A model generated the notes under the pieces. That model saw only the letters and a list, made by a program, of their open reading frames with translations, was not told the origin of the DNA and did no database searches. From positions 1 to 64,000 of the forward strand of contig JAKCEW010000001.1 of NCBI GenBank assembly GCA_023539445.1: 64,000 bases of DNA, in the 5' to 3' direction. The translations under genes were made by a program, and so were the position numbers. Shown in pieces: positions 6,843 through 39,843 of the stretch. The stretch is from Candidatus Terraquivivens yellowstonensis. GTDB lineage: Archaea > Thermoproteota > Nitrososphaeria_A > Caldarchaeales > Wolframiiraptoraceae. Numbering within the stretch: position 1 is the stretch's first letter; each line of letters starts with the position of its first letter.

Positions 6843-8543
6843 TTGAGTATGGAGTATGAAATTTCCATCAGACTAAAGGGCATAGACGATGCCACACCTA
6901 CATTCAAAGATGTGACCTCCGCGATAATCGAGATGCGGAAGGGTAATGATGTTGCTAGACAGTCATTTAATGAGCTCTACAAAGAAGTCCGTGAGCAGCA
7001 AAAGATCATCCGTGTTCTGAAAGAGGAGGCAAGCGGTGCTGGTCTGACCTTTGAAGTTTTCAAAGATACGCTCAACAAATTCGGCAATGTCATGAGTGGG
7101 GTTAATAGCATCATGACGCGATGGAATCTCTTGCAAACACGACTGAACACTGCCCAAATAGCTCTCAATCAAGCACAAAGGGATTACAACGAAGCTGTTG
7201 AAAGGTTTGGACCAAATAGCGAGCAGGCAAGAAAAGCACTCGAAAGGTTGCATGAAGCACAAAAAAAGATGAACCAAACACAAATCGAGACCATCTTTCA
7301 AATGACCGCACTCGGCATAAATGCTATAACCCTAGTGCCAAAATTCATGGAACTGTATAAATCGCTTAGTGCCCTCATAGCCGTCAAGAAAATCGCAGCG
7401 GCAACATCGGCACAACTTGCTGCTGCTCAGACTGCATCAGCGGCAGCAGGTGCTGCTTCAGTACCCGGCCATCTTGCAGCTGCCGGAGGGATAACTGCAG
7501 TAGGTACAGCCGCAGCCGCGGCGTCGAAGCCTCTTGCAATTTTCAAAGCTCTTCTTGGTCCTCCGGGCTGGGCTTTGTTAGCAGGTGCGGCCGTGGCTGT
7601 GACGGCATTCTTCGCTACAGTAGGTTCTCAATCAGTTGCCGCGGAAAGAAGTTTAACATCATTCCAAAGCACAACAACTGGGACTTTCACAGCAGTTGCA
7701 TCAGAGGCTGAGATTATGGCCAGCTCGGTCTCCACATCTTTCGAGAAGATGGGACAGACACTAAAAATTTCGGGTCAGGAGTTTGCAAGCTATGCCGACT
7801 ACATTTCTGATATTACCTACAAAGCCCTGAAGAGAATCGAAGAAATCAATGCACAAATGCAATACGAGTACGAGAGGAGCATTCCTTGGTATGCGGGCAG
7901 ATACGGCGCGGAGGCGCAACTCATGCGTGAGGGACGTTGGAATGAGTTGGCGAGTATGCAAAGGGCGGGTAGCACTGGCGGATGGGGTTTCAACGTTGAG
8001 GAGCTCAGGCGTTACGGCACACCCATACCGATTGAGTGGTATTCGTCGCTCGCATCGCTCAGGCAATACTTCTACGGAAAGACGGAGATCACCTATGAGG
8101 AGATGCTCAAATCAAGCCCCGGCGCGCTCCAAGCGCAAATCGATTACATCAAATACTTTATCAGGACTCAAGAGAAGACTTTAGCCGCGAAGTATATTCC
8201 AGCATATCGCGAAGAGCTGGAAAAGCTAGAGCGGGCGTTGAGCGAGGTCACCAGAAGGCTTGAGGAGGAGCAGAGGAGGCGCGAGGCGGAGAGACAATAC
8301 AAGCGCCAGCTTGAGGAGTGGGTTGAGAGGAAAGAGTGGATGCGCGTGTTGGGCATACTGCCTGCCGTAGCATTACCAACAACACCAAAGGATTGGATTG
8401 AGCTTGCCAAAAAATACTCGGGCATCCAGCCTCCCAGCACGACTATAGTGATAAACAACCTCGAGGTGAAGGCCGATGACCCAAAGAAATTCCTCGATAA
8501 GCTGACGGAAATCGCGTCTTTGCGGGGTGAGGCTCCTGCATGA
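6843..8543 (+). CDS. Tail tape measure protein
   Basis: 566 residues from TTG at 6843, or 564 from ATG at 6849. The N-terminal third is a long charged coiled coil (ELYKEVREQQKIIRVLKEEA). An Ala/Gly-rich hydrophobic middle (about residues 175-270) contains putative membrane-inserting segments, and another helical charged region follows (LEKLERALSEVTRRLEEEQ). This is the standard make-up of tape measure proteins, which set tail length and act in DNA ejection. The length is short for the family and, by the usual rule of about 0.15 nm per residue, implies a tail of roughly 80-90 nm. Its stop overlaps the hub gene as ATGA. Confidence 0.85.
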   Translation: MSMEYEISIRLKGIDDATPTFKDVTSAIIEMRKGNDVARQSFNELYKEVREQQKIIRVLKEEASGAGLTFEVFKDTLNKFGNVMSGVNSIMTRWNLLQTRLNTAQIALNQAQRDYNEAVERFGPNSEQARKALERLHEAQKKMNQTQIETIFQMTALGINAITLVPKFMELYKSLSALIAVKKIAAATSAQLAAAQTASAAAGAASVPGHLAAAGGITAVGTAAAAASKPLAIFKALLGPPGWALLAGAAVAVTAFFATVGSQSVAAERSLTSFQSTTTGTFTAVASEAEIMASSVSTSFEKMGQTLKISGQEFASYADYISDITYKALKRIEEINAQMQYEYERSIPWYAGRYGAEAQLMREGRWNELASMQRAGSTGGWGFNVEELRRYGTPIPIEWYSSLASLRQYFYGKTEITYEEMLKSSPGALQAQIDYIKYFIRTQEKTLAAKYIPAYREELEKLERALSEVTRRLEEEQRRREAERQYKRQLEEWVERKEWMRVLGILPAVALPTTPKDWIELAKKYSGIQPPSTTIVINNLEVKADDPKKFLDKLTEIASLRGEAPA

Positions 8544-10840
8544 GCTTCCCCTCGCTCTTGCTGAGGATTAAAAAAGCGGATGGATCGTGGCAAGATGTTT
8601 CTTTTGGTATCGCAAATACCGAGCTTCAGTTGAAATGGGGGAGGGAGGCGGAAGAGCTGAGTTTCTCACTGAGTGCCGAGGGTAATGAAGCAATCATACC
8701 GCTTTTTCAGACGGGCAGGGATGTGGAGCTTTACATCAATAACGTTCTGAAATTCGCTGGTTTTATAATCGAATACAGGCCGAGCGTCGAGCTAAATGCT
8801 CGGAAGATAGCCTGCAAGGCCGTAAGCTATCTCATGCTGCTGGACAGGGTCGAGGTGAACGAACAGTATGCGCCGACCGAAGTATCCCAAATTATCAAGG
8901 GTATTGCCGAGAGCGCGGGGCTTTTAACCTCGGGCATCGAGCCGACGGGCCTTATCCTTTCGCCGAATTTCAGACACCAGAGTGGCCTAAAAGCGTGCTT
9001 GGAATTGGCGGAGAAGGCTGGATGCATCATCAGAACAACACCTGAAAAGGTTTTGTTGTTCAAGCCCCGGGGATTCGGCAATAATATTATAACAAATCCG
9101 TCATTCGAAGTCGATGCCGGCTGGACGTTAAAGCAGTATGTCGGCTCTCCCTCGGTCGCTTATGATACTTACGATGCTCGTTCAGGTAACAGTTGCATAA
9201 AGATTGATTGTATTAATGCGGGAGACGTTGGTGGAGTTGAGCAAGTAATAAACGTCGAAGCGGGAAAGCGCTACAGGTTCTCGGTATGGATGAAAGGGAC
9301 GAATACGGGCAGGCTTTCGGTCACATGGCTTGCCTCAGACGGCTCCGAGATTTCTACGGATTTGCAAGATTTGGCGCTAACGTCAGAATACAGAGAAATA
9401 GTTGTTAATGCCGTCGCACCACCGAGTGCGGCTCAGGCAAGGGTTTCCGCCATATGTTTAGGCCAAGGCGTCGGGCGGATCGATGACATGTATGCCGTGA
9501 AGGTTCATGAGTTGCTCGACACGAAAAACATAATCAAAGCATCAAAGAGCGAGAAGGATTACCTCAGACGTAATAAAATCATAGTTGTTGGCGGGTGGGA
9601 CGAGAACGGCCAAAGGATTGAGGCGGTGGCGCAGGAGGGCGCGGGCGACAGACCCCTGACAATCTACGATTTGACGATAACGAGCGCCCAGGATGCCGAG
9701 AGAATCGCGAGGCAGAAGCTTGAGCAGCTAAAGGTCACGCCCGTTATGCTTGATATCTTGGCCGATGGTGATGCGGGATTCGAGGCTGGCGATTACGCGT
9801 ATGTAGAAATCGGATGGCTCGGCATCGACGGTTATTACCTTATTGAAAGCGTTGAGCATGATTTTTCGGGTAGGATTTTTCTGAGCAGACTTTCGCTCGT
9901 GAACCCTGAGTATGTTCACAAGGATTATCTCGAGAGTCTGGCCGATACGCTGAGCAAAACCAAGCGAATCGAGCTGCCCACACCATCAGCCGAAAAGGAA
10001 AAAACGCCCGCATCAACGACGGTTTACAGACTCATAAATTACCCGCCCCTTGAGTTGGAGAATGCGCAAAACATTATGCTGGACTCGAACGGCTATGCAA
10101 CGCTATCCTCTGGTGCCACATTCGGCAGTTTCGAGATATTGTGCACGCCTGTCGCCATACTGTTCAGGCGATGGCTCAGGGTAGGAGCCGATTTTGATGA
10201 GCGAGAGGGCGATGTGATCGTGAAACTAAAACGCATTTCGGATGGTTATACCGAGACCATCATGATAGATCCTCCGGGCACTTATGAAATACCGTATCTG
10301 CCCGATGCTCGTGGATTGTGGACGGAGGACAGCTCGGAATGGGATGCTGAGGGTGCCAATTTGAGTGATTTTGATACTAGACTTTTCGGCAATAAGAGTG
10401 TCAAAGCCGTCGCGTCATCCTCGCCTTTCCGTGTGATATACCCAAAAACAAGGGATGCGAGCTGGGATCTAAGCGGTTTCAAGGAAATGGTGCTGTGGAT
10501 ATTAGCGAATGCTACATGTATAGCGAGCGTAAGATTGCATACCGATAGCGCCAATTATTTTATGAAAACATTTACGCTCGAGACCGCTAATGCTTGGATA
10601 CCATACACGTTCAAGCTGTCGGAGTTCACACAATCGGGCTCTCCCTCGCTCTCGAATATAAACTACTTCTCGCTCGAGTTCCAGAGTCCCGTGACATGGG
10701 TCGCTATAAATGCTGAATTCGTGTTTGTCAAGTATGGTTATGAGAAAATAGCGCTCGTTTTCGAACTTTCGCGTCCCTCGGCGGACAAACAGAGCCCTGT
10801 AGTAAAAGAGGCGAGGTTTGTATGGGTGGGTGGTGAATAA
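8540..10840 (+). CDS. Tail hub / tail-associated protein with inserted carbohydrate-binding-like domain
   Basis: 766 residues. Residues 1-175 and about 310-480 look like the two halves of a tail hub (gp27-like / phage late-control D fold), with phrases such as VELYINNVLKFAGFIIEY, ARKIACKAVSYLMLL and AGDYAYVEIGWLGIDGYYLI. Between them, residues about 180-310 have the signature of a CBM4/9-type jelly roll: NIITNPSFEVDAGW, then SCIKIDC, then GKRYRFSVWMKG. The C-terminal 250 residues form another beta-rich region with a similar aromatic pattern (SSEWDAEGANLSDFD). It follows the tape measure and precedes the fibre gene, as expected for a distal tail component. The carbohydrate-binding role is inferred from the domain look. 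Confidence 0.75.
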   Translation: MSFPSLLLRIKKADGSWQDVSFGIANTELQLKWGREAEELSFSLSAEGNEAIIPLFQTGRDVELYINNVLKFAGFIIEYRPSVELNARKIACKAVSYLMLLDRVEVNEQYAPTEVSQIIKGIAESAGLLTSGIEPTGLILSPNFRHQSGLKACLELAEKAGCIIRTTPEKVLLFKPRGFGNNIITNPSFEVDAGWTLKQYVGSPSVAYDTYDARSGNSCIKIDCINAGDVGGVEQVINVEAGKRYRFSVWMKGTNTGRLSVTWLASDGSEISTDLQDLALTSEYREIVVNAVAPPSAAQARVSAICLGQGVGRIDDMYAVKVHELLDTKNIIKASKSEKDYLRRNKIIVVGGWDENGQRIEAVAQEGAGDRPLTIYDLTITSAQDAERIARQKLEQLKVTPVMLDILADGDAGFEAGDYAYVEIGWLGIDGYYLIESVEHDFSGRIFLSRLSLVNPEYVHKDYLESLADTLSKTKRIELPTPSAEKEKTPASTTVYRLINYPPLELENAQNIMLDSNGYATLSSGATFGSFEILCTPVAILFRRWLRVGADFDEREGDVIVKLKRISDGYTETIMIDPPGTYEIPYLPDARGLWTEDSSEWDAEGANLSDFDTRLFGNKSVKAVASSSPFRVIYPKTRDASWDLSGFKEMVLWILANATCIASVRLHTDSANYFMKTFTLETANAWIPYTFKLSEFTQSGSPSLSNINYFSLEFQSPVTWVAINAEFVFVKYGYEKIALVFELSRPSADKQSPVVKEARFVWVGGE

Positions 10841-13306
10841 GTGCCTCAGGAAATAAAGTATTCGAAATTGGAAGGTGAAATGGCGACCTACGTCCTCGGC
10901 AATACTATTCCCGCCGAGGATGAGCAAAAAGTCAGCACATTAAGGCAATCATTTTCGCAATCAATAAGTGAGGGGACGGTTATCCAGCAGGCCTCGACGG
11001 GTTCGACCTTCGACGTTTACGGGAGCAGATGGGTCGCACAACCAATAATTAATGCCACCTCGAACGTTCTCAAGATAACCAAGGTTGCGTGGTATGGGGT
11101 AAAGGGTGGGACACCACCAGGAGATTTAAGAGCCGAGATCCGCAAAATAAACCCATCGTTAAACGAAATCGCAATCTATACGCTAGGCACGGACACGCGG
11201 CTGGCGCAGTATGAGCCTATTGGCGGAGATTATATGGTGGCGCAGGCGTTCTATGTCCCCGTAAGCACGCGCCTAACAAAGGTTACATTCACAATCTGGA
11301 AACCGACGCAGAATGCGAAGTTGGCGCTCAAAAAGAGGAAGTTGCTCTGGAGGTTTGATAACCTGTTTGATTTAACGTGGACTGTACCGTCGGCCAGCGA
11401 TAACATACCGGCCACCTCTGGAACTTATTGGCCGAGAGAGGTGCTGAATATTTCCGATGCCGTTTTTGAGGTAGAGTTGAGCGCAATATACAACTATTCG
11501 GGAACGTATATAATATTTGGTACGAGGGCGAGCGATACAAATAATGCATACGGTTTTTATGCAGGATATTCCTCTACGGCAAAGTTTTATAAAAAAATTG
11601 GTGGTGCGGAAACGGTATTAATAAGCTACCCCACTCTCTCAGGTAACGCGGTTTATCTTACACGAATCAGGCAGGTCGGTAGCCTTCATCAAGTATATTT
11701 TGCGCACACAAATGACGTTAGGGAGGTTACAGATTCAGCGCGCTCATCTGGCTCGGTATTTGTAACAATAGGTGTTAATGCCGCATACCCTAAGGCGGAT
11801 AACATTCGAATATATGAGTCCGATGCAAATTACATTATCATTTACGGGCTATCGCCCGACAACTATGTGGAGCTCCTCGATAATACCAACGCGGTCATAG
11901 CGACAGCTACGGCCGATAGTCAGGGCATCGCAAAGATATACGTATTCAACTTACCGAAAAACACACCATTCCGCGGCATGAAAGTATATACCGATTCCTC
12001 AAAGAGGACGACGCTATACTCAACAGGCTCATCCGAAGTAATATACGACAACATCTTTTCAGGGGACGAATTCGAATACCAAAGCTCGCCGAGCTACACT
12101 ATTCAGGACTTGGAGGTTTTGCTTGTCGAATGTAATGATGATAGAAGTCCGAATTTAAATAAAGTTATAACTACGCGAACAGTATCGGCATCGAGTATAG
12201 GAACATCGCCGGCAACCGTAACTATCAGTTTCTCTCCAGATTATCCGGCCTTAACAGGCGGCAAGTATTATGCAATCGTCCTGAGGCAGAAAGGTGGCGG
12301 CACGACCTTTACGCCCTATGCCGTTAGACTCAGGGAAACGCACCGTCAAAGAGAGCCGACGTATTACCCGTTTTTCCGCTCTGTTGATGGAGGGTCGACG
12401 TGGAAGCGACAGGGCGGCATATTTTGTATTGAAGGGAGCATATACATGATGGCATTAGCGCCGAGCCTTTACCCCGATGCTGTCCTTGCCTCGGCATCAT
12501 GGACGGCTTCAGAAATTGGCACATCAGCCGCTTGGTATGAAAAAGCCCTTGATACGCCCGTGTATCTCGCGCCGGGGGATGCTGTAGTACTATTAATTTA
12601 TCAGTCTGGAGGCCTAGGCAGTAGCAGCAACTATTACAGGGTTAATTATGCCACATGGACGGATAATAACACGAGCGCAAACGACCTATACGGTCCGCTT
12701 AACAAAGATTATTGGAAATGCTATCTTTTCGCATTCTTGTCGAGCACGGATGGAGGTGTTACATGGAGCGCAACAACCAACGGAGACCTGAGCTTCCAGA
12801 TAAAGGGCTATACGGCCGTGCCTCTATTCTCAACAAATCTCGTCCTTGACGAAAAAATCAAGCGCGTTAGAACGACGGTAACTGCTAGGGTTCTCAGCGG
12901 CAACACGATATATTTCCTCACGAAGGTTGGCGGTTCTCAGGTAAAGGAATCATCAACGACTGCCATGTTTTTAACGGACGTCATTGCATTCCCAGAAAGC
13001 GAGGCAATACCCGATACGGGTACTGTTACGCTAACGATTTATGTCATGGGGACGGGAGAGGTATGGGAAATCAGGACGCAACGTTTTGTCTGCAATGAGA
13101 AAAAGACAATAACGCCGAAAGACTTGGGCTTTGCGGAGCTATATCTTCTCAAGGCAGAGATCCCGACGGGCGGAAGCATCAGAATCAACGAAAAAACCGA
13201 ACTGGGAGGGGGGACGCATTCGTTCTCGGAGTTCAATTATCCCGTTAAGAAGGTGGAAATAATCAACACAAATACGGCAACCCTGCACTTTTTAGGGGTG
13301 AAGTGA
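10841..13306 (+). CDS. Tail fibre / receptor-binding protein candidate
   Basis: 821 residues from GTG at 10841, directly after the hub stop. Beta-rich, low in Cys, rich in Ser, Thr and Tyr, as in adhesins and fibres. A region near residues 165-310 (VLNISDAVFEVELSAIYNYSG, then YGFYAGYSSTAKFYKK, then NIRIYESD) looks like a LamG/concanavalin-type lectin sandwich. Two later repeats share the phrasing 'fyPxfrSVDGGSTWKRQGG' and 'LSSTDGGVTWSATTNGD', which resemble Asp-box (SxDxGxTW) turns of sialidase-like folds. Position and composition support host recognition; the target is unknown. Confidence 0.7.
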   Translation: MPQEIKYSKLEGEMATYVLGNTIPAEDEQKVSTLRQSFSQSISEGTVIQQASTGSTFDVYGSRWVAQPIINATSNVLKITKVAWYGVKGGTPPGDLRAEIRKINPSLNEIAIYTLGTDTRLAQYEPIGGDYMVAQAFYVPVSTRLTKVTFTIWKPTQNAKLALKKRKLLWRFDNLFDLTWTVPSASDNIPATSGTYWPREVLNISDAVFEVELSAIYNYSGTYIIFGTRASDTNNAYGFYAGYSSTAKFYKKIGGAETVLISYPTLSGNAVYLTRIRQVGSLHQVYFAHTNDVREVTDSARSSGSVFVTIGVNAAYPKADNIRIYESDANYIIIYGLSPDNYVELLDNTNAVIATATADSQGIAKIYVFNLPKNTPFRGMKVYTDSSKRTTLYSTGSSEVIYDNIFSGDEFEYQSSPSYTIQDLEVLLVECNDDRSPNLNKVITTRTVSASSIGTSPATVTISFSPDYPALTGGKYYAIVLRQKGGGTTFTPYAVRLRETHRQREPTYYPFFRSVDGGSTWKRQGGIFCIEGSIYMMALAPSLYPDAVLASASWTASEIGTSAAWYEKALDTPVYLAPGDAVVLLIYQSGGLGSSSNYYRVNYATWTDNNTSANDLYGPLNKDYWKCYLFAFLSSTDGGVTWSATTNGDLSFQIKGYTAVPLFSTNLVLDEKIKRVRTTVTARVLSGNTIYFLTKVGGSQVKESSTTAMFLTDVIAFPESEAIPDTGTVTLTIYVMGTGEVWEIRTQRFVCNEKKTITPKDLGFAELYLLKAEIPTGGSIRINEKTELGGGTHSFSEFNYPVKKVEIINTNTATLHFLGVK

Positions 13307-22431: not shown

Positions 22432-23901
22432 TCAATATCTTAACTTTTCCATGAGGTACCTTTTGAGGTCCTTGATAGCTATCCTTTCTTGGTTCATCGT
22501 ATCTCTATCCCTGATAGTAACGGTTTCGTCTTCCATCGTTTGATAGTCTATAGTTACGCAAAACGGCGTGCCTATTTCGTCTTGTCTCCTATAACGTCTA
22601 CCTATGGAGCCACTATCGTCATAAACCGTATCAAAGTCCAGCTTTAATGATTCGTAGACTTCTTTCGCCTTTTTGTCCAAACCATCCTTGGTAACGAGCG
22701 GGAAGACCGCTACTTGAACCGGTGCCAACATGGGCGGAAGTTTTAAGACCGTCCTTTCGCTTTCCTTCACGTAACTATGCTCCAATATGCAGAGGAGGCT
22801 TCTGTCAACACCCATGGAAAGCTCGAATACATGTGGTATGATTTTTTCCCCATCATCGTAAACACTCAAATCCTGACCACTAACTCTAGAGTGACCGGAG
22901 AGGTCGTAGTCTGTCCTGTTGTTGCAAGCAACCAGCTCTATCCATCCGATGCTCGTCAAGACCTCTACATCCCATGCTTCCTTCGCATAAAATGCTCTTT
23001 CCTCATCACTCAACTGTCTTAGCCTGAATCTTTCCATGTCAATGCCTACGATTTGGTAGAAACGCTGTATGAGGGCAAGGTAATAGGCTACAAGCATGCT
23101 AGATATAAGACCTGTTTCAACACTCTCCTTGCAAGATACTTTGAGGATTTTATCCTCGTTCAAAGGCTTCAATCTTAGAATGAAGTCCTCGTATTCGCGC
23201 GCCTTTGGGAAATCGTTCGCCTTCTTCGGGTTGAAAAAGACTTCGATTTCTGCTTGATAAAATTCTCTAAGCCTAATCAAAGATTGTCTGGGCGATATTT
23301 CATTCCTAAAGCTCTTACCGTATTGCGCAATCGCAAACGGGAGTTTCTTTCTCATTGTTTTGTAAATCCTAAGGAAGTCAACAAATATGCTTTGGCAAGT
23401 TTCCGGTCTAAGGTAACACTCATCCCCCGATACACCAACGTTTACTCTGAACATCATGTTAAACTTTGAAACTTTGTCAAGCTTACCTTTGCAATTTGGG
23501 CAGACCACATTATGTTCTAAGATAAGCTTATCCATATCTTCCGTGGCTAACCTCTCAGGTACTGGAAACCCTAGAACTTCCTCAAGCAACTTATCAGCCC
23601 TGAAGATGGCATTGCACGATTTGCACCTAGTTATCGGATCGGTGAAGCTCTCAAGGTGTCCGGACGCTACGAATACCCTTTTTGGCATTATTTGAGAGCC
23701 GTCTATCTCCACCATTTCATCCCTTCTAATCAGCTCTCTTCGCCAAACCTCTATGTACTTGTTCTTCATTGAGACTGCCAGCGGCCCGTATTCGTAGAAG
23801 CCTGCAGGCGCATCGCTATATATCTCAGAAGATGGGAAGAAGAAGTTTCGCTCAAGTGCCAGCCTGACTATCTCGTTGTATAACGAGGTTGTTGATTCCA
23901 T
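22432..23901 (-). CDS. glyS: Glycyl-tRNA synthetase, class II
   Basis: About 489 residues from ATG at 23901; a GTG at 23925 would add eight residues. Charges tRNA-Gly. The eukaryote/archaeal-type dimeric enzyme is recognised by the opening (LALERNFFFPSSEIY, then AGFYEYGPLAVSMKNKYIEVW), a CKSCN...CPNC zinc pair, motif 2 (FAIAQYGKSFRNEISPRQSLIRLREFYQAE), a late motif 3 (FELSMGVDRSLLCILEH) and the anticodon-binding domain (LAPVQVAVFPLV). It lies downstream of the four-TM RING gene on the same strand with a 37-nt gap, so partial co-transcription is possible. Confidence 0.97.
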   Translation of the reverse strand: MESTTSLYNEIVRLALERNFFFPSSEIYSDAPAGFYEYGPLAVSMKNKYIEVWRRELIRRDEMVEIDGSQIMPKRVFVASGHLESFTDPITRCKSCNAIFRADKLLEEVLGFPVPERLATEDMDKLILEHNVVCPNCKGKLDKVSKFNMMFRVNVGVSGDECYLRPETCQSIFVDFLRIYKTMRKKLPFAIAQYGKSFRNEISPRQSLIRLREFYQAEIEVFFNPKKANDFPKAREYEDFILRLKPLNEDKILKVSCKESVETGLISSMLVAYYLALIQRFYQIVGIDMERFRLRQLSDEERAFYAKEAWDVEVLTSIGWIELVACNNRTDYDLSGHSRVSGQDLSVYDDGEKIIPHVFELSMGVDRSLLCILEHSYVKESERTVLKLPPMLAPVQVAVFPLVTKDGLDKKAKEVYESLKLDFDTVYDDSGSIGRRYRRQDEIGTPFCVTIDYQTMEDETVTIRDRDTMNQERIAIKDLKRYLMEKLRY

Positions 23902-23938
23902 ACCGCTTAGGGATTGATATAACACTTAGTTAAAAGGT

Positions 23939-24634
23939 TTATCTGATTACGGGCTTCTTACAGCTTGGACATATACCGTTTAACTTTACCCAAATGTCGA
24001 TGCAACCTTTATGGAATAACGTTTGACAGTTGCTGCACATAACAGTAGTTTCTGGGTCCAGCTCTTGATAACATATACCGCAAATTGCACCGGGAGGCAC
24101 ATCTGTTGCATGCAGTAATTCAACAGCCTCTTCAACAGCCGGGACTGAAGTTTCAAGAGAAGGAGGTACTGTATGAGGTAGCACTTCAATCCTGATAGGG
24201 GTGGTTATTATAGTGACGGCAGGAACGAACATTGCTATTGCCGAAAGATAGGACATGAACATTCCTATTTCTAAATGTCCCTTTACCTGCAACGCAGGTA
24301 TTACTACAAAATGTGCATAAGCTGGCGATGCAATAGCGAGAAGGGCTCCGACAAGCGCAGTGGCTCCGACGAGCCACTTTGCTGTCATTATATTTGATGA
24401 GGTGGAGGACAGCAAAAGCGCGATTCCACAAACTATACCGCCAGCAATTGACATGAAAAGAGACTCAGTGATGATGTATCCTTGTATGGGAGTTGTGGAC
24501 ATGGTGTCTGATATTACGGTGTACCATGACATGAGTAGCGTGAGGATATGAACTGCACCAATTCCGGCCACGATTAGTGCTAGTTTAAAAAACCGCCCCA
24601 ACACCGCTTGGGATGAAACCTCCAAACCCACCAC
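23939..24634 (-). CDS. Four-TM membrane protein with C-terminal C4HC3 RING-type finger; candidate membrane E3
   Basis: 231 residues. Four hydrophobic spans lie at about 15-41, 53-77, 83-110 and 122-148, then a Pro/Val/Glu linker, then a RING-like finger at about 185-228. The ligand order is C-x2-C-x11-C-x2-C-x4-H-x2-C-x10-C-x2-C, C4HC3 as in RING-CH/PHD types. The small RING protein of the ubiquitin operon has the same spacing except for one residue and shares HKxCxxxW and CPxCK(K/R)PV. Eukaryotic membrane E3s of the MARCH/Doa10 type also join TM segments to a C4HC3 RING. It is separated from the ubiquitin operon only by a coiled-coil gene. A ligase role for the archaeal ubiquitin-like system is inference. 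Confidence 0.82.
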   Translation of the reverse strand: MVGLEVSSQAVLGRFFKLALIVAGIGAVHILTLLMSWYTVISDTMSTTPIQGYIITESLFMSIAGGIVCGIALLLSSTSSNIMTAKWLVGATALVGALLAIASPAYAHFVVIPALQVKGHLEIGMFMSYLSAIAMFVPAVTIITTPIRIEVLPHTVPPSLETSVPAVEEAVELLHATDVPPGAICGICYQELDPETTVMCSNCQTLFHKGCIDIWVKLNGICPSCKKPVIR

Positions 24635-24772: not shown

Positions 24773-25612
24773 ATGGGTTTTCTTGGAGGAAAGTCCAAAG
24801 AAGAGATCCTTAACGAGTTTAGAAGAGAGTTAGATGAGCTCAGGCTTCAGCTTGAGGAGAGGATAGATAATAGGATTAGTTCGCTTGAAAGAGCACTCAT
24901 TGAAGTTTCAGAAAACGTTAGAACACTTGCAAAAGAAAAAACATTTCCAGAAGAGTTCCTAGCGAGAGTAAGCGAGGCAGCAATGAGTGCAGAGAGTGTC
25001 GTTAAGGAGTTGAAAGTCATAAGAGAATACAAGGAATGGTTCGATTCCATCAAAGAAGGGCTTAACGATGTTTTAGAGTTGCTTTCACGAGAGAGGTCGA
25101 TGCTCAGGGAAGATGTGGAAAGGTTGATTAAAGAAAAAAGCGAACTTGAGGTTCTCAAAAACGAACTAAGAAAGTGGAAGGCAGATCTTGACGAGAAAGA
25201 GCACAAGCTATCAAACTTTAACGCATATGTTAAGGAGCTTGAGGATAAGAAAAACAGAATAGAGGCGGAGCTTAAGGATCTATCCCAACGTTACTTGACG
25301 TCCTTAGAAGAAATGCTACATAAGATTGATGAGGAAGTAAATAAGATAGATCGCATGTTTAAGCTAAAGGAGATAAGGCTTGAGAGGATTGCGAGAAAGG
25401 AGAGAGAATTATCGGACGCTCTTATGAGGATAAAGGAACGTGAAGAGATGATGCGCGAGCTAGAAAATAAAGTGCGAGAGATGAATGAAGAGATCTCCAA
25501 GCTAGAGGCAAAGAAAACAGAATTGTTAAATGATATAAACGAGCTTACAGAGCGCAAAGCAAATTTGGAAAAGTTGGTGGGAGAATTTAGAAAAGCTATA
25601 CTTACTCCTTAA
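24773..25612 (+). CDS. Long coiled-coil protein
   Basis: 279 residues starting MGFLGGKSKEEI, ATG about 35 nt after a TTTTTATA box. From residue 10 to the end it is an almost unbroken charged heptad pattern (ELDELRLQLEERIDNR, ELEDKKNRIEAELKDL, ELENKVREMNEEISKLE), with one likely break near residues 60-75. No globular domain, TM or signal. It sits between the membrane RING gene and the ubiquitin operon. Its end overlaps the end of the small coiled-coil gene of that operon by 4 nt, tail to tail. Function unknown; a scaffold or tether is plausible. Confidence 0.75.
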   Translation: MGFLGGKSKEEILNEFRRELDELRLQLEERIDNRISSLERALIEVSENVRTLAKEKTFPEEFLARVSEAAMSAESVVKELKVIREYKEWFDSIKEGLNDVLELLSRERSMLREDVERLIKEKSELEVLKNELRKWKADLDEKEHKLSNFNAYVKELEDKKNRIEAELKDLSQRYLTSLEEMLHKIDEEVNKIDRMFKLKEIRLERIARKERELSDALMRIKEREEMMRELENKVREMNEEISKLEAKKTELLNDINELTERKANLEKLVGEFRKAILTP

Positions 25613-25920
25613 TCTTTTCTAAGAGTTTTCTCCAAAGTTTCAATCAAACTATTGAAGGCCTCTATAAGCGAATCTATATGTGCAAGTATCTGATCTTGGC
25701 CTTTCTCTAGAGCCGCTAATCTGCTTTCCAATCTGTTTAATAAATCGGTGCTAGGCATTTTATTTTCAAGCGATTGAACCTTACTTGAGATTTCTTCAGC
25801 TTCCTCATGGACCATGGAAATTGCTTCAGCTAATTTCTTGACAGTATTGAGCGATGCCACTTTTCCAGCAGGCGTATCTACGTACTCAAGATCTATTACA
25901 AACTCTTCTTCCTCGCTCAT
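25609..25920 (-). CDS. Small acidic coiled-coil protein, last gene of the ubiquitin-like operon
   Basis: 103 residues. The N-terminal 25 residues are acidic and beta-like (MSEEEEFVIDLEYVDTPAG). The rest is a heptad coiled coil with two stretches (VKKLAEAISMVHEEAEEI and LNRLESRLAALEKGQDQIL). Its ATG overlaps the stop of the small RING gene (ATGA), so it is translated with that operon. No known ubiquitin-system family recognised. Operon position suggests it helps or anchors the conjugation machinery. Confidence 0.75.
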   Translation of the reverse strand: MSEEEEFVIDLEYVDTPAGKVASLNTVKKLAEAISMVHEEAEEISSKVQSLENKMPSTDLLNRLESRLAALEKGQDQILAHIDSLIEAFNSLIETLEKTLRKD

Positions 25921-26075
25921 ACTACCATCTCCAGCACTGGCCTCTTACATATCGGACAGGCATTCCTTATACTTAACCAGCTATCAAAACACGCCTTATG
26001 ACCTACCGTTCCGCAATGAGGACATGTTGTTGTAGCAACACCCTCACTAATTTCGGAGGCACAAATCGGGCACAT
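25917..26075 (-). CDS. Small RING-finger protein, candidate E3 of the ubiquitin-like system
   Basis: 52 residues from ATG at 26075, which has a GGTGA ribosome site 5 nt upstream. A TTG start at 26147 would add 24 residues and overlap the E1 gene by 23 nt. Practically the whole protein is a zinc finger: C-x2-C-x12-C-x2-C-x4-H-x2-C-x10-C-x2-C, a C4HC3 RING-type order. Small RING proteins are known partners in the 'Ca. Caldiarchaeum' ubiquitin operon, where they activate transfer from E2. It lies downstream of E1 and overlaps the coiled-coil gene. Confidence 0.88.
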   Translation of the reverse strand: MCPICASEISEGVATTTCPHCGTVGHKACFDSWLSIRNACPICKRPVLEMVV

Positions 26076-26124
26076 CCTGCTCACCGTCTTAGTTTTTGTC
26101 CAAATCCACTTGCCTACACAAGTC

Positions 26125-27315
26125 TCATTTCTTACCACTATTCTCAATAAAGCTCACCTTTATGGGTATTGGCATGTACCGCCTACTCGTGTGGATATAC
26201 AATATGTCGTCGCTTTTAATGTTTATCTCTGACAGCTTTTGATCGTCTTTTAATATCCATTTTTTATACTGGATTTCGGGGTCCGGGATGCTAAATAAAG
26301 CACTTACCTTCTCCTTCAGATTCCATACACAGTCATCGGAATTGGCTGTTATCTCGATTGGTTCTCCTCCTTGCATAACATCACCGCAGACAAAGCAATC
26401 CTCCCTTCTTTTTAAAGGAACTTTGGTTAACCTTTGCGATGCACCATCGTATACTATAAGATGCTTTGTTACCTTTCCGATGCTCCCACCATGTATTATT
26501 TTTAGCACTTCTAAAGATGCCACACCCGATATAACTGATGCCCCTCCTTGAATCGCCGGCAACTTAGGCTTTAACAGATCCCTTAGTCTGATTATCTCTT
26601 CAGAAATTTTGCTATGCTCTTTTTGGAGCCTTTCTATCGGCGTGTATTTAAGGTCGTAAATTGTTTTTATACCCATAGAAAATAGTTCTTTAACAAGCTC
26701 GAAAGGTACCTCAATTTTGTTTTTCCTTAGGTCCTCGGCGAGGTCCTCTGGTTTACGTCTTCTGAGCGTACATTCGGCCAACTGCGTGTCCTTAGGGATT
26801 AGGGCGTCACCATGACATTCAAGACATGCCGTTTCTCCTGGTATTACAACCTGCACATTTCCGTATAGACCTTCGATTGCTGTGTCAACAAGCGGTTTCT
26901 TAAGTTCGACGGCAAGCGAGTTAAGCCACCTTCTCGTTGCCCAGTTGTCTAAGCAGGAGCAAAAAACATCCACATCTTTCAGCAAAGATTCATCAAACTT
27001 TCTTAAGTCCTCATAATAAGCATCAACCTTAACGTAGGGGTTTATCTTCTGAAGCTTCTCTTTGGCAACAATGGCTTTTGGCAAGCCTATATCAGAATCC
27101 TCAAAAAGCATTTGACGGTTAAGGTTCGAGAGTTCTACCACGTCGTTATCAACCAAGATTAGCTTGCCGATTCCTGCGAGGCAGAGGTTCTTTGCCAACT
27201 CGCAACCCGTCGCGCCCACGCCCGCTATTAAGACCGTTGAGTTCGAGACCTTCCACTGATTCCAGCCGCTGATTCTTATCTGCCTGTCATATCTTTCTAG
27301 CAGGTATGGCTCCAT
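26125..27315 (-). CDS. E1-like ubiquitin-activating enzyme
   Basis: 396 residues. Adenylates the modifier C-terminus and holds it as a thioester. The nucleotide-binding loop is GVGATGCEL (32-40), followed by DNDVVELSNLNRQ (56-68), diagnostic of ThiF/MoeB/E1 enzymes. Zinc is held by C164/C167 and C307/C310. The likely catalytic Cys is C182 in AECTLRRRKP, resembling the Cys-Thr motif of eukaryotic E1. After the zinc pair, residues about 318-380 look like a ubiquitin-fold domain (NLKEKVSALFSI, then DDILYIHT), the part that recruits E2. This eukaryote-like order goes beyond bacterial MoeB. It lies 92 nt downstream of E2 in the operon. Confidence 0.93.
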   Translation of the reverse strand: MEPYLLERYDRQIRISGWNQWKVSNSTVLIAGVGATGCELAKNLCLAGIGKLILVDNDVVELSNLNRQMLFEDSDIGLPKAIVAKEKLQKINPYVKVDAYYEDLRKFDESLLKDVDVFCSCLDNWATRRWLNSLAVELKKPLVDTAIEGLYGNVQVVIPGETACLECHGDALIPKDTQLAECTLRRRKPEDLAEDLRKNKIEVPFELVKELFSMGIKTIYDLKYTPIERLQKEHSKISEEIIRLRDLLKPKLPAIQGGASVISGVASLEVLKIIHGGSIGKVTKHLIVYDGASQRLTKVPLKRREDCFVCGDVMQGGEPIEITANSDDCVWNLKEKVSALFSIPDPEIQYKKWILKDDQKLSEINIKSDDILYIHTSRRYMPIPIKVSFIENSGKK

Positions 27316-27407
27316 TTACAGCCTGAAAGTTTATTCGAATGATATAATAACATTTAGGCTGAAACTTAAAAGGGACATGGTAAAACCATGAAAGCATGAA
27401 ATTTTGA

Positions 27408-27923
27408 CTACATTCGCCACTTTAGCTTTTTCTCAAATACCTTTTCTGGGGTTGCATAAAGCTGTATGTAGTACCTAACCCTATTGAAAAAAACGTCGGG
27501 CCTATATTTCATTTCATAAGCCGCTATCGAGTTAAGCGGGTCGTCTGGGTTTGGATTGGCTAATAGATTCTGGAGTGCCTCAACAATGTTCACGAGGTAC
27601 AACCCAGGTCTCCAGTCATCTTTAAAAATGGATTCGCATATCCTAGCAGGAACCTCGTCTGTAAAATTAGGATGCCATACCCTTGTATGCCAGATAACAT
27701 TTGGCGGCACGTATGGGTATGCCCTTGGTATTTTTATCTCTACCTTAAAGTACCCACCCTCATAATACCCAGAGCCCACTATCACACCTGTATAGTGTGT
27801 CAGGTCACCATCAACTATGTCGAATAATGGAGGGTCGCGCTCCTGCATCAATCTATACTCTACGGCCAACCTCTTATTCCATAGAGGTTCGGGTAATTCT
27901 GAGTAAGTCTCCAGAGGTGCCAC
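27408..27923 (-). CDS. E2-like ubiquitin-conjugating enzyme
   Basis: 171 residues from GTG at 27923. UBC fold: N-terminal helix (WNKRLAVEYRLMQ), strands YTGVIVGSGYYEGGYFKVEIKIP, then YPYVPPNVIW, the HPN motif (84-86) and the active-site Cys96 in ARICESIFKDDW, followed by the conserved W-x-P and LQNLLANPNPDDPLN. Accepts the modifier from E1 and passes it to substrates, probably with the RING proteins. The first 50 nt overlap the end of the modifier gene in another frame. No ATG exists before helix 1, which supports the GTG start. Confidence 0.95.
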   Translation of the reverse strand: MAPLETYSELPEPLWNKRLAVEYRLMQERDPPLFDIVDGDLTHYTGVIVGSGYYEGGYFKVEIKIPRAYPYVPPNVIWHTRVWHPNFTDEVPARICESIFKDDWRPGLYLVNIVEALQNLLANPNPDDPLNSIAAYEMKYRPDVFFNRVRYYIQLYATPEKVFEKKLKWRM

Positions 27924-28155
27924 CCCCCACCGTTCTTGTTATGATGACCAGTTTGTCGCCTTCTGATATACCTAAGTCAGTAAGTGTTTCCGTTTCTTTT
28001 AAAGCTCTACCCTTGTAAGTTAAGTATGTAGTGTCTGGCGGAAGTTTCTTAATCGCACAGACCTTAGCCTTAATTGCCCCTATTGTTGCATTTGGAGAAA
28101 CTTCTAACTCTAGAGGGCTACCACCACCGACTGCAGGTATAACCTTGATTTTCAT
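27874..28155 (-). CDS. Ubiquitin-like modifier with C-terminal extension
   Basis: 93 residues, beta-grasp fold: MKIKVIPAVGG strand, helix TIGAIKAKVCAI, strand TYLTYKGRAL, the ubiquitin-like turn ETLTDLGISEGDKLVII, then GGG at 77-79. Unlike mature ubiquitin it continues for 14 residues beyond the Gly run, so it must be trimmed to expose Gly-Gly before activation, plausibly by the divergent Rpn11-like protease. First gene of the leftward operon; ATG at 28155 with a GGGGG ribosome site. Its 3' end is shared with the E2 start. Confidence 0.93.
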   Translation of the reverse strand: MKIKVIPAVGGGSPLELEVSPNATIGAIKAKVCAIKKLPPDTTYLTYKGRALKETETLTDLGISEGDKLVIITRTVGGGTSGDLLRITRTSME

Positions 28156-28349
28156 AAGTCTTTAACCCCCATTGGCATTCTATTTGTAACATATTTAAGT
28201 ATTAACTTTTTAAAGCAGTTAGGGGTTACGTATAGACAACGCCGGGAATTCCTATATATTTTGGGCGCATTACGTTATAGGGCATCTAACGACTCCATTA
28301 ACCATTTCAAACGTTAATTAATATGGTTAAACACTAATACGCAGGTTCC

Positions 28350-28985
28350 ATGAGGGCACGCATTTATCCTCTAGCTCTTGGTAAGATACTTCATCATGCT
28401 ATTAGTAACATTAATCAAGAAGTTGCAGGGTTAATGGTGGGAAAAGTAGTATCGGACGTTGTTGAGGTCTGGGATACCGTTACTGGTCCTCAACAGAGCA
28501 CGCCTGCATACGTTAAGCTCGAAGAGAATGTTATGGCCTTGGTTGCTGAAGTTTTGATAGAAAACCTTCCAGACCTATACATAGTTGGCTGGTATCATTC
28601 ACATCCGGGTTTAGATGTCTTTATGTCACCTATAGATGTCGAGACGCAAAAAGCCTACCAAACCATGTTTCCTAAGGCCATAGCGTTAGTTGTTGATCCC
28701 CTACAATTTAGCGCCAGCTGGAAAGTCTCGGACCTAAAGATCGGCGTGTTTAGAATAGATAAAAATGGAAAGGTCGTGCCAGTAAGGTTCACGCTTGGTT
28801 TACAACGGCGTAAAGTCCTTGAAAGCACGCTGGTAGGTCTCCAAATGCTTGATTTGATTCCTAGGAAAGCCGACGTGGCTGATGAGGAGAGTGTAAAGAC
28901 TAGTACCGCCAAAATGCTTGACCTTGATCATATAGTAAAGTTTTTTAGCAAAACCAAGAAACTTTTACCAAGTAGGAAGGGATGA
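28350..28985 (+). CDS. Rpn11-like JAMM metalloprotease (deubiquitinase type)
   Basis: 211 residues. The zinc site is complete: Glu24 in NQEVAGLMVG, then H83-x-H85 in GWYHSHPG, Ser93 and Asp96 in MSPID. The HSHPGLDVFMSPID loop is the Rpn11/CSN5 style, unlike the bacterial RadC or Mec+ type. Such enzymes cleave isopeptide bonds and, in this system, should also process the modifier precursor. Transcribed divergently from the modifier gene across a 194-nt promoter region. The C-terminal 50 residues are helical and basic. Confidence 0.94.
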   Translation: MRARIYPLALGKILHHAISNINQEVAGLMVGKVVSDVVEVWDTVTGPQQSTPAYVKLEENVMALVAEVLIENLPDLYIVGWYHSHPGLDVFMSPIDVETQKAYQTMFPKAIALVVDPLQFSASWKVSDLKIGVFRIDKNGKVVPVRFTLGLQRRKVLESTLVGLQMLDLIPRKADVADEESVKTSTAKMLDLDHIVKFFSKTKKLLPSRKG

Positions 28986-29035: not shown

Positions 29036-29833
29036 ATGCCAAAAAAGATAGTTATAAAGTTTAAGGAAGAAAAAATGGCGAAGGACGTAGTGGAAGAGAC
29101 CTCTCAGGTAGAACCTGAGGTGAGTACTGCAGAAATTGAGACGAAAATTCAAGCAAAACCGCCTGAAAGTATCGCTGCACCTAAAGATCTTGAGGCATCT
29201 ATTGTGAAAGAAGCTTTCGAAGGATACGACGCACTTATGGCAAAGTTACAAGAAATAAAGATACGGGAACAAATATTCCAAAAGATGCTTCTGGAGCAGG
29301 ACATCAGTATAGCAACTATCAAAGAGATATTGTCAAGATGGAATGCGATGAGGGAGCAAGTAATTGGTGAGTCGGCATCCTTGATTGAAAAAATTAATGC
29401 TGCTAAGAGTAAACTGGAAACAGAGTTTTCCAATATTGAGACAGATTTATACATCTCGGTCGTCGAATTGGATACGCTGAAATATAAGGAAAGTTCGAAC
29501 ATCCCTGTACCTCAGGAGCTTAAAGCAGGCTTAGAAACAAAAATCACAATCCTCAGACAAGAACTTTCCGAAAAGAAAAAGAAAATTAAAGAGTTGGAAG
29601 AAATGGTTAAGACGGTTACCGAGTTACCGAAAAAAATTCACTCCTTGACGACGTACACTGAGCTTGCTGACAAACTTTACGAAGAGCTGAAGGAAAAGCA
29701 TGGGGCGAAGTTTGGCCCAAGGGTTGACGAGTCTTTACAAAAAAATATAGAAAACATCATGCAGTCTTTGGGCATACCTAGGGAATATGCAATAATACTT
29801 ATCTGGAAGGAGGCGCAAGCCCCCGCCAGCTAA
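29036..29833 (+). CDS. Coiled-coil protein downstream of the Rpn11-like gene
   Basis: 265 residues; ATG preceded by a strong GGGAGGGG site 6-7 nt upstream, 50 nt after the protease stop, so both are probably one operon. A basic N-terminus (MPKKIVIKFKEEK) and a Pro/Glu-rich stretch precede a long helical coiled coil (about residues 60-215, e.g. LRQELSEKKKKIKELEEMV). A small C-terminal helical part follows (IMQSLGIPREYAIILIW). No family recognised. Neighbourhood suggests a link to the ubiquitin-like system, not proven. Confidence 0.72.
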   Translation: MPKKIVIKFKEEKMAKDVVEETSQVEPEVSTAEIETKIQAKPPESIAAPKDLEASIVKEAFEGYDALMAKLQEIKIREQIFQKMLLEQDISIATIKEILSRWNAMREQVIGESASLIEKINAAKSKLETEFSNIETDLYISVVELDTLKYKESSNIPVPQELKAGLETKITILRQELSEKKKKIKELEEMVKTVTELPKKIHSLTTYTELADKLYEELKEKHGAKFGPRVDESLQKNIENIMQSLGIPREYAIILIWKEAQAPAS

Positions 29834-34991: not shown

Positions 34992-35729
34992 TTGGAAGTA
35001 AATATATTGAAGAGGGGCGTTACTGTAAAATCGCTAGTCGCGGCACTTCCTGGAATGGGCAACGTAGGAGGCATCGCTGCAGCGTACCTCATAGAGGAGT
35101 TGAAGATGGAGCCAATAGCGGAGATACTAGACTATATGCCACCATATGTCATTCATAAAAACTCTCTCATACAATTTGAAAGGTTTTCTTTCAAATTGTA
35201 TTGGGGCGGAAAGGATTTTGCTGTCTTTACCGGATTTTATCAACCTCAAGATCCACATATGTTGTATGAATTGTGCGATGATTTGTTAGATTTGGCGGTC
35301 AACTTAGGTGTTAGAAGAATATACACGTTGGGAGCGGCGCATACTGGCGTATCAGTGTCAGAGCCAAGGGTTTTTTACGCAGTAACAGATGCTAGACTTA
35401 ACAAGGAGATAGAATCCTATGGAGCCCAGCAAATGAGGGGTGAGGGGTACATAACAGGCTTTAACGGTCTATTGCTGGGCTTGGCAGCACAACGCAACAT
35501 TGAAGGCGTATGCTTTCTCGGAGAGATAGAAAGACCAGACGTGGCGCAACCTAAGGCTTCGATAGAAGTGCTGAAAAGGCTCTCCGCCGCTTTAGGCATC
35601 GAGTATCTAGACTATACAAAGCTCGAGGAACAAGCAAGGAAGGTTGAGTTCTACATTAGCTCGCTTAAGCGAGCTGAAGAGTTCAAGCAGCAAAAAACCA
35701 GAACGGACATACCACCAGGTGTTATGTGA
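34992..35729 (+). CDS. PAC2-family protein (proteasome assembly chaperone-like)
   Basis: 245 residues from TTG at 34992. The pattern SLVAALPGMGNVGGIAAAYLIEEL, then IYTLGAAHTGV and GYITGFNGLLLGLA is typical of the archaeal PAC2 family (COG1938/COG2047 type), related to chaperones that assemble the proteasome alpha ring. It ends with a helical charged tail. Whether it acts on the proteasome or as an unrelated nucleoside-hydrolase-like fold cannot be decided here. Its presence in a genome with a ubiquitin-like system is of interest. Confidence 0.85.
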   Translation: MEVNILKRGVTVKSLVAALPGMGNVGGIAAAYLIEELKMEPIAEILDYMPPYVIHKNSLIQFERFSFKLYWGGKDFAVFTGFYQPQDPHMLYELCDDLLDLAVNLGVRRIYTLGAAHTGVSVSEPRVFYAVTDARLNKEIESYGAQQMRGEGYITGFNGLLLGLAAQRNIEGVCFLGEIERPDVAQPKASIEVLKRLSAALGIEYLDYTKLEEQARKVEFYISSLKRAEEFKQQKTRTDIPPGVM

Positions 35730-39330: not shown

Positions 39331-39420
39331 AAGTTCCAAACCTGACACATATCTTAGCGCATGTTCACACGACTTAGGCTTAAGATGGTTATATACTACT
39401 TTGGTCTCTTCGTTAAAGAA

Positions 39421-39843
39421 TTGACGCTCATAATAAGCAAAACCAGTCTGGATGAAGTTATCAAACATGCTTTAGAGACCTATCCCGAAGAATGTTGTGG
39501 GCTTCTAGTAGGGAAAAAGGAAGGTGAGAAGAAGGTTGTTATTAAGGTTGTAAGGAGTAAAAACGTTTACGTGGGGGATAGAAGTAAGAGATACATGATT
39601 GATGCATTAGATATATATAATGCGGAAAAGGATGCAGAAAAACATGGGTTAATGCTTATCGGTGTGTACCACTCACATCCCAATTACCTTGCAAAACCGT
39701 CGGCCTACGATGCAGAAGCCGCTTGGTCCTCCATAAGCTATCTAATAGTTTCCATACGTGATAAGAGGTTTGATGAAGTAACCGCATGGGTTTTTGATAA
39801 GAAAAATGAAGAATTTCTTAAGGAAGACATAATAGTTGTTTGA
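39421..39843 (+). CDS. Second JAMM metalloprotease (Mec+/desampylase-like)
   Basis: 140 residues from TTG at 39421, chosen because a TTATATAC box lies 27-28 nt upstream; an ATG at 39361 would add 20 residues but precedes the TATA box. The JAMM site is complete: Glu in YPEECCGLLVG, H-x-H in GVYHSHPNYLAKPSAYD with Ser and Asp. Spacing and length fit the small bacterial/archaeal JAB type (Mec+, HvJAMM1) and not Rpn11. In bacteria Mec+ removes cysteine from the carrier CysO; in archaea it removes small modifiers. Next to cysteine synthase. Confidence 0.9.
   Translation: MTLIISKTSLDEVIKHALETYPEECCGLLVGKKEGEKKVVIKVVRSKNVYVGDRSKRYMIDALDIYNAEKDAEKHGLMLIGVYHSHPNYLAKPSAYDAEAAWSSISYLIVSIRDKRFDEVTAWVFDKKNEEFLKEDIIVV

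Follow-up and report, generated by a model that had tools for sequence, protein, structure and literature searches.

The closest described relative of the locus studied here is the ubiquitylation operon of 'Ca. Caldiarchaeum subterraneum' (in the following C. subterraneum), on which Nunoura reportedly also wrote in 2011. For its proteins, the cascade from adenylation to ligation has been reconstituted in vitro: Rpn11 trims pro-ubiquitin, E1 and E2 carry ubiquitin, and the soluble RING protein srfp is needed for substrate ligation, which was abolished or impaired by the srfp exchanges I30Q, W58A and R69A (Hennell James 2017, PMC5654768). In addition, 'a second E3' beside this operon has been mentioned (Fuchs 2018, PMC6043591). 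Here we describe the corresponding locus in a window of 64,000 nucleotides (by window we mean the whole stretch of DNA that was analysed) from Candidatus Terraquivivens yellowstonensis, a hot-spring archaeon of the order Caldarchaeales and the family Wolframiiraptoraceae, whose genome of 1.16 Mb is 95.8% complete. Profile and structure matches support its identification as a eukaryote-like ubiquitin conjugation and processing cassette of the C. subterraneum type. Beside it lies a gene for a RING protein with four predicted membrane helices (tmRING), and it is probable that the locus encodes a full ubiquitin cycle in which a soluble and a membrane-anchored RING ligase would share a single E2.

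The cassette and its comparison with C. subterraneum

The original prediction, made from the letters of the window, had placed a ubiquitin-like protein (Ubl), E2, E1, a RING protein and a coiled coil on the minus strand, next to a JAMM protease, within positions 25609-28985. All of these parts were found there, and the profiles it proposed as a check (ThiF, UQ_con, ubiquitin, JAB and zf-RING, the last as zf-RING_2) all matched when protein domains were assigned by Pfam. These coordinates leave out the second, membrane RING gene, which lies 1 kb further on. The genes are:

27874..28155, minus strand: Ubl (pro-ubiquitin, 93 aa), mature residues 1-78 followed by a 15-aa pro-peptide; Pfam ubiquitin 9e-13
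27408..27923, minus strand: E2 (171 aa), with a GTG start within the Ubl gene; UQ_con 6e-28; HPN at 84-86, Cys96
26125..27315, minus strand: E1 (396 aa), with a single ThiF domain and a C-terminal ubiquitin-fold domain; ThiF 1e-62; Cys182
25917..26147, minus strand: soluble RING protein srfp (76 aa, C4HC3); zf-RING_2 6e-10
25609..25920, minus strand: ccA, a coiled-coil protein of 103 aa; alignment, substitution rates and synteny with the RING
28350..28985, plus strand: JAMM / Rpn11-like protease (211 aa), divergent from Ubl; JAB 2e-21
23939..24634, minus strand: tmRING (231 aa), with four predicted membrane helices before a C-terminal C4HC3 RING (C185-C225) with I187 and W215; zf-RING_2 2e-9

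Most of the predicted details could be confirmed. The HPN motif and catalytic cysteine of E2 are conserved across all orthologues aligned, and its closest solved relative is UBE2K. In the case of E1, with yeast Uba1 and UBA3 as best PDB matches, Cys182 is the cysteine of 'ECTLRRR' and zinc cysteines lie at 164/167/307/310. Its ubiquitin-fold stretch (residues 315-378; 1.5e-5) scored 25.1 bits against a cut-off of 25.4, and a separate profile search gave 28.6 bits, above the cut-off. Cys182, the zinc cysteines and the GxGxxG loop of E1 are kept in nearly all orthologues, as are the E/HxH/S/D residues of JAMM. For srfp (zinc ligands C26, C29, C42, C45, H50, C53, C64 and C67), C45 is invariant and H44 variable in the alignment, so that the C4HC3 assignment is correct; its PDB profile matches are RING E3s. 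The description of Ubl as ending in 'GGG' plus a tail stood as far as the tail is concerned, but the conserved mature end is TRTVGG (residue 78), and the third glycine therefore belongs to the pro-peptide. The extra coiled-coil component that had been pointed out, ccA, is conserved and accompanies the RING in most of the order. It carries a conserved N-terminal [DE]TPxG motif and, with a ratio of nonsynonymous to synonymous substitution rates (dN/dS, computed within the genus Terraquivivens) of 0.02-0.05, is among the most constrained genes of the block, for all of which the ratio is 0.02-0.28.

The likeness to C. subterraneum that had been noted is borne out by the closest structures, which are CsRpn11 for JAMM (6fju, 2e-60) and CsUb for Ubl (2mqj/6fj7, 7e-39 to 2e-38). 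Both loci share genes, gene order, the divergent Rpn11 and the TVGG end of pro-ubiquitin; the C. subterraneum srfp, with I30, W58 and R69, is the counterpart of the window's srfp, and C. subterraneum-type genomes likewise have a ccA-ccB-tmRING block (ccB is a further coiled-coil gene, listed below). The pro-peptide differs, with 15 aa in the window and 9 aa in C. subterraneum. The genome of the window has exactly one E2, a single free ubiquitin-like protein as judged with the Pfam ubiquitin profile, two RING_2 proteins, three proteasome subunits and two Cdc48-N ATPases. In a survey of 81 genomes with the UQ_con profile, such a gene was found in 43/43 Caldarchaeales genomes (the window's own included, that is, beside 42 relatives) and outside the order only in one genome (G067). 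The core cassette is thus already known and is a fixed trait of Caldarchaeales. Because it is universal in the order, its presence alone is no discovery.

Membrane RING: spread, topology and predicted fold

A wider sample of 300 genomes was used for tmRING. Full-length tmRING is present in 40/43 relatives within the order (41/44 with the window's own genome), and the three genomes without it are incomplete or cut assemblies. Among the 257 Thermoproteota outside Caldarchaeales, no full-length tmRING was found (0/257), only RING-only matches, and a search for the membrane domain alone did not retrieve one that lacks a RING. A RING-like match in one genome (G051, L071) was considered as a further tmRING and rejected, its membrane part being different and unrelated.

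The eight zinc ligands (C185, C188, C200, C203, H208, C211, C222 and C225) are invariant in 25 sequences and have cross-brace spacing; in the membrane part, R14, H29, W37, G52 and S103 are invariant in the alignment. Basic residues concentrate at the N-terminus (mean 2.3), in the loop joining helices 2 and 3 (2.5) and after helix 4 (2.0), with means of 0.4 and 1.4 in the two other loops; for this reason, the RING domain should lie on the cytosolic side. Among the proven E3s that its RING profile matches are Arkadia, RNF165 and RLIM, along with ZNRF3, an E3 of the membrane. In the case of the eukaryotic membrane RING E3s ZNRF3 and Hrd1/synoviolin, membrane helices are likewise followed by a cytosolic RING, and PDB matches span the last helix and the RING; their membrane domain is different, the likeness being in the RING and its position. 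MARCH ligases share with tmRING the C4HC3 order and the membrane anchoring. In MARCH proteins two helices follow the RING, whereas in tmRING four precede it. Membership of the MARCH (RING-CH) family was rejected, as the best RINGv match is 0.13 versus 4e-11 for zf-RING_2.

To describe the membrane part, we used structure prediction. An AlphaFold2 model of tmRING from 15 sequences has a predicted local distance difference test score (pLDDT) of 84; for the membrane-helix blocks, the score is 86-97. Searched with Foldseek against the PDB, the top 50 matches are exclusively claudins, TARPs, the calcium-channel gamma subunit and MP20, with probabilities mostly 1.0 and a best E of 2e-3, and thus no match at E 0.001 or better. 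The divergent C. subterraneum orthologue, modelled from an input free of Terraquivivens sequences (pLDDT 82), gave the same claudin-superfamily result. With VIA-align 2, the first model reached Z 13.4 (root-mean-square deviation, rmsd, 3.8 over 143 residues; 50/50 rows claudin superfamily) and the C. subterraneum model Z 14.3 (rmsd 3.6, 143 residues), values to be read with the program's warning that, for helical bundles, a common arrangement can be enough for a Z of about 13. The uniform match list and the replicate model argue for a real structural likeness, and both predicted models show four helices with extracellular strands in the claudin arrangement.

Compared with the claudin superfamily (claudins, TARPs, Cav gamma, GARLH, MP20), the predicted fold matches over about 140 residues at an rmsd of about 3-4, yet identity is 5-18%, the cysteine pair of the outer loop is missing and a RING is fused. 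The claudin sequence profiles PF00822 and PF13903 do not match tmRING, and of the W...GLW...C...C signature in the first outer loop, W37 and G52 are invariant and the cysteines absent. Membership of the claudin family was rejected on these grounds. By prediction, the membrane part of tmRING has a claudin-like fold and is not a claudin.

Docking residues, gene linkage and the proposed cycle

In a RING-only tree, which is weak (about 45 residues, midpoint rooting; finer branching not usable), the two RINGs form two separate clades, with Calditenuaceae grouped within each. These separate clades and an identity of 31-35% between the srfp and tmRING RINGs indicate that both are probably old paralogues. 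Their E2-docking residues were compared at the positions of I30, W58 and R69 (the linchpin) of the C. subterraneum srfp. Outside Calditenuaceae, srfp has I or V, W and mostly K or R at these three positions. In Calditenuaceae, W58 is replaced by L in 10/10 sequences and I30 by A in eight, S in one and V in one; K or R is kept at the R69 position in all ten. In tmRING, the docking I is found in 32/32 and W in 30/32, with Y in two Caldarchaeum. Its linchpin position is K in 15/15 distinct Wolframiiraptoraceae and G in 12/12 Calditenuaceae, and varies overall among G, Q, N and K outside Wolframiiraptoraceae. The E2 of Calditenuaceae has N after the loop-7 Pro/Ala (DWYPN, DWHPN, DWYAN), where others have S, T, A, G or P. 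This pattern suggests that E2 docking may have moved to tmRING in Calditenuaceae.

Three further genes surround the two RING genes and JAMM, all placed by synteny:

24773..25612, plus strand: ccB, a coiled-coil protein of 279 aa, convergent to ccA and divergent from tmRING
22432..23925, minus strand: glyS-like gene (glycyl-tRNA synthetase by eye), 13 bases after tmRING
29036..29833, plus strand: ccC, a coiled-coil-like protein of 265 aa, 3' of JAMM

The order and strands RING> ccA> <ccB tmRING> are fixed beside E1 in Wolframiiraptoraceae, Caldarchaeaceae and a third family. In most of the Calditenuaceae sampled, this block is intact and Ubl-E2-E1 is located elsewhere, with the glyS-like gene alongside the block in the loci where it was read. 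The place of ccB (dN/dS 0.05-0.11) is kept across genomes, and the divergent gap between ccB and tmRING is usually near 110-120 bp. ccC (dN/dS 0.06-0.09) adjoins JAMM in many genomes, not all. The linkage of the four genes supports a functional unit, although it may go back to a small number of rearrangements.

Taken together, a cycle can be proposed. By analogy with the C. subterraneum orthologues, JAMM would almost certainly trim Ubl to TRTVGG, and E1 would, with equal confidence, adenylate Ubl and hand it to the single E2; very probably, srfp would then dock E2 and drive ligation. Judging from its topology, its residues, the single E2 and the linkage, tmRING would probably dock the same E2 with its cytosolic RING, and membrane or membrane-near proteins would be tagged. 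Cdc48-type ATPases might possibly extract tagged proteins and pass them to the proteasome, or JAMM might release them; the genome content is compatible with this route. That ccA and ccB are scaffolds or adaptors of the RINGs is a tentative guess. A stronger form of the proposal, which we regard as doubtful, is that a claudin-fold tmRING docks the single E2 and ubiquitylates membrane proteins, that in Calditenuaceae it has replaced srfp as the sole E2-docking ligase, and that it is an archaeal counterpart, outside eukaryotes, of membrane-associated degradation.

Several points weigh against a cycle with two ligases. The activities of the proteins in the window are predicted, that of tmRING included. 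The basic linchpin is absent from tmRING of Calditenuaceae and of some Caldarchaeaceae, so that tmRING is perhaps no autonomous ligase. The Calditenuaceae break from Ubl-E2-E1 may be a single event, which makes it weak evidence for function, and the changes in docking residues, confined to one clade, may be one event as well. Moreover, in one genome (G028) the block is split, RING-ccA-ccB lying apart from a tmRING-glyS pair that stays linked; the glyS-like gene shares this linkage to tmRING and could be what carries it. From this and from the 13-base spacing, one could argue that only the known five-gene cassette matters and that tmRING, as a membrane protein that binds zinc, does a different job and is held in place by an operon with the glyS-like gene. 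We consider this rather unlikely, as the RING of tmRING is closest to those of ubiquitin E3s, its E2-contact residues are strongly conserved and it is confined to Caldarchaeales, where every sampled genome has an E2.

The distribution of docking residues also permits a different division of labour, in which tmRING is a membrane anchor with a partner RING and a tmRING-srfp heteromer, perhaps formed via the coiled coils, is the real E3. In Calditenuaceae srfp lacks the docking I and W and has the linchpin, tmRING shows the opposite, and the four genes stand together in most genomes. However, both RINGs of Wolframiiraptoraceae have I or V, W and the K linchpin (mostly K or R in srfp), and because both keep docking residues and linchpin, each could act alone there. 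In known RING E3s, linchpin and E2 contacts reside in the same RING, so that a split between two RINGs is not expected, and the heteromer appears unlikely. As an alternative to housekeeping ubiquitylation, the set could be a conjugation system against phages like the bacterial Bil systems, which also combine Ubl, E2, E1 and JAB. Unlike patchy defence islands, the set occurs in every genome of the order sampled, in single copy and with conserved neighbours, and its closest relatives are Rpn11 and ubiquitin; a role in defence was rejected on these grounds, with no PADLOC search made, as highly improbable. We retain the two-ligase cycle as the probable reading of the locus.

Regarding novelty, the claim is limited by the mention of a second E3 in PMC6043591. 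As far as searched, neither PMC5654768 nor PMC6043591 describes that second E3 as a membrane protein, nor a claudin-like fold or the coiled coils; the word 'transmembrane' is absent from both, and the 2011 papers (Nunoura; Burroughs) could still mention membrane segments. As far as these two papers show, the new elements are the predicted membrane topology, claudin-like fold and order-wide conservation of tmRING, the movable four-gene module, the loss of srfp docking residues in Calditenuaceae and the origin of most pro-peptides in the E2 overlap. For the way in which eukaryotic ubiquitin signalling began, there is no better model than the ubiquitin systems of archaea. A conserved membrane-anchored RING beside a minimal system suggests that the tagging of membrane proteins is perhaps not exclusive to eukaryotes; if tmRING is a ligase, archaea can tag proteins at the membrane. 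Wolframiiraptor gerlachensis, of a genus within the window's family, has been cultivated (PMC9246946) and has the same genes as the window at its locus (L098). Digestion with trypsin leaves a TVGG remnant of its Ubl, and ubiquitylated membrane proteins could thus be searched for directly.

The Ubl pro-peptide and further observations

The mature end TRTVGG is invariant among the Ubl sequences aligned. In about 20 of about 40 distinct sequences the stop codon follows directly after GG, most of the remaining tails fall in the overlap between Ubl and the start of E2, and a few short tails (1-4 residues) lie outside it. Terraquivivens species read one tail DNA in two frames (GTSGDLLRITRTSME versus GRLWRPTQSYLNLYGIRG), and the tail is therefore not selected as a peptide. 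In this genus, the pro-peptide is mostly the start of E2 read out of frame, and its sequence is not conserved. The tail thus looks like a by-product of gene overlap, and the overlap itself perhaps serves coupled translation. As JAMM is kept in lineages that need no trimming of Ubl (Wolframiiraptor and several Calditenuaceae), its lasting role is suggested to be deconjugation.

A second divergent cluster was found in one genus of Calditenuaceae (L052:9551-10372, plus strand; L051:9231-10049; L059:9220-10050). Its main gene is one open reading frame (ORF), 272-276 aa long, whose N-terminal part is Ubl-like and ends in PVGG (ubiquitin 2e-4, under the cut-off) and whose C-terminal part is an E2 (UQ_con 1e-7); a JAMM gene adjoins it and, in two of the loci, a ThiF gene is nearby. 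The product resembles a Ubl-E2 polyprotein which JAMM could cleave. In G067, which belongs to another family, the order is JAMM (525 aa), a Ubl ending in IVGG, E2 and E1 (L053:8545-12256, minus strand), and the ubiquitin-fold domain of this E1 is N-terminal, not C-terminal.

Two other arrangements concern the neighbours of E2 and E1. In three Terraquivivens, extra genes lie on the opposite strand between both (L032:10617-11288, L033:8989-9660, L034:7286-8730): two of the genomes carry an ORF of 223 aa there, the third a transporter-like pair. In one of the Calditenuaceae (G036; L049:9994-14287), E2 and E1 stand in a row with AsnC-like, Vps4-like ATPase (MIT, AAA, Vps4_C) and CdvB/ESCRT-III-like (weak Snf7) genes, so that ubiquitin and ESCRT genes adjoin. 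Elsewhere in the window, judged by eye, there is a PAC2-like proteasome-assembly-chaperone gene (34992-35729, plus strand), a second JAMM-like gene (39361-39843, plus strand; HSHP...D), which has a cysteine-synthase-like gene as its neighbour, and a stretch of large ORFs (6843-13306, plus strand) whose products look like those of a phage or integrated element, namely tail tape-measure and structural proteins.

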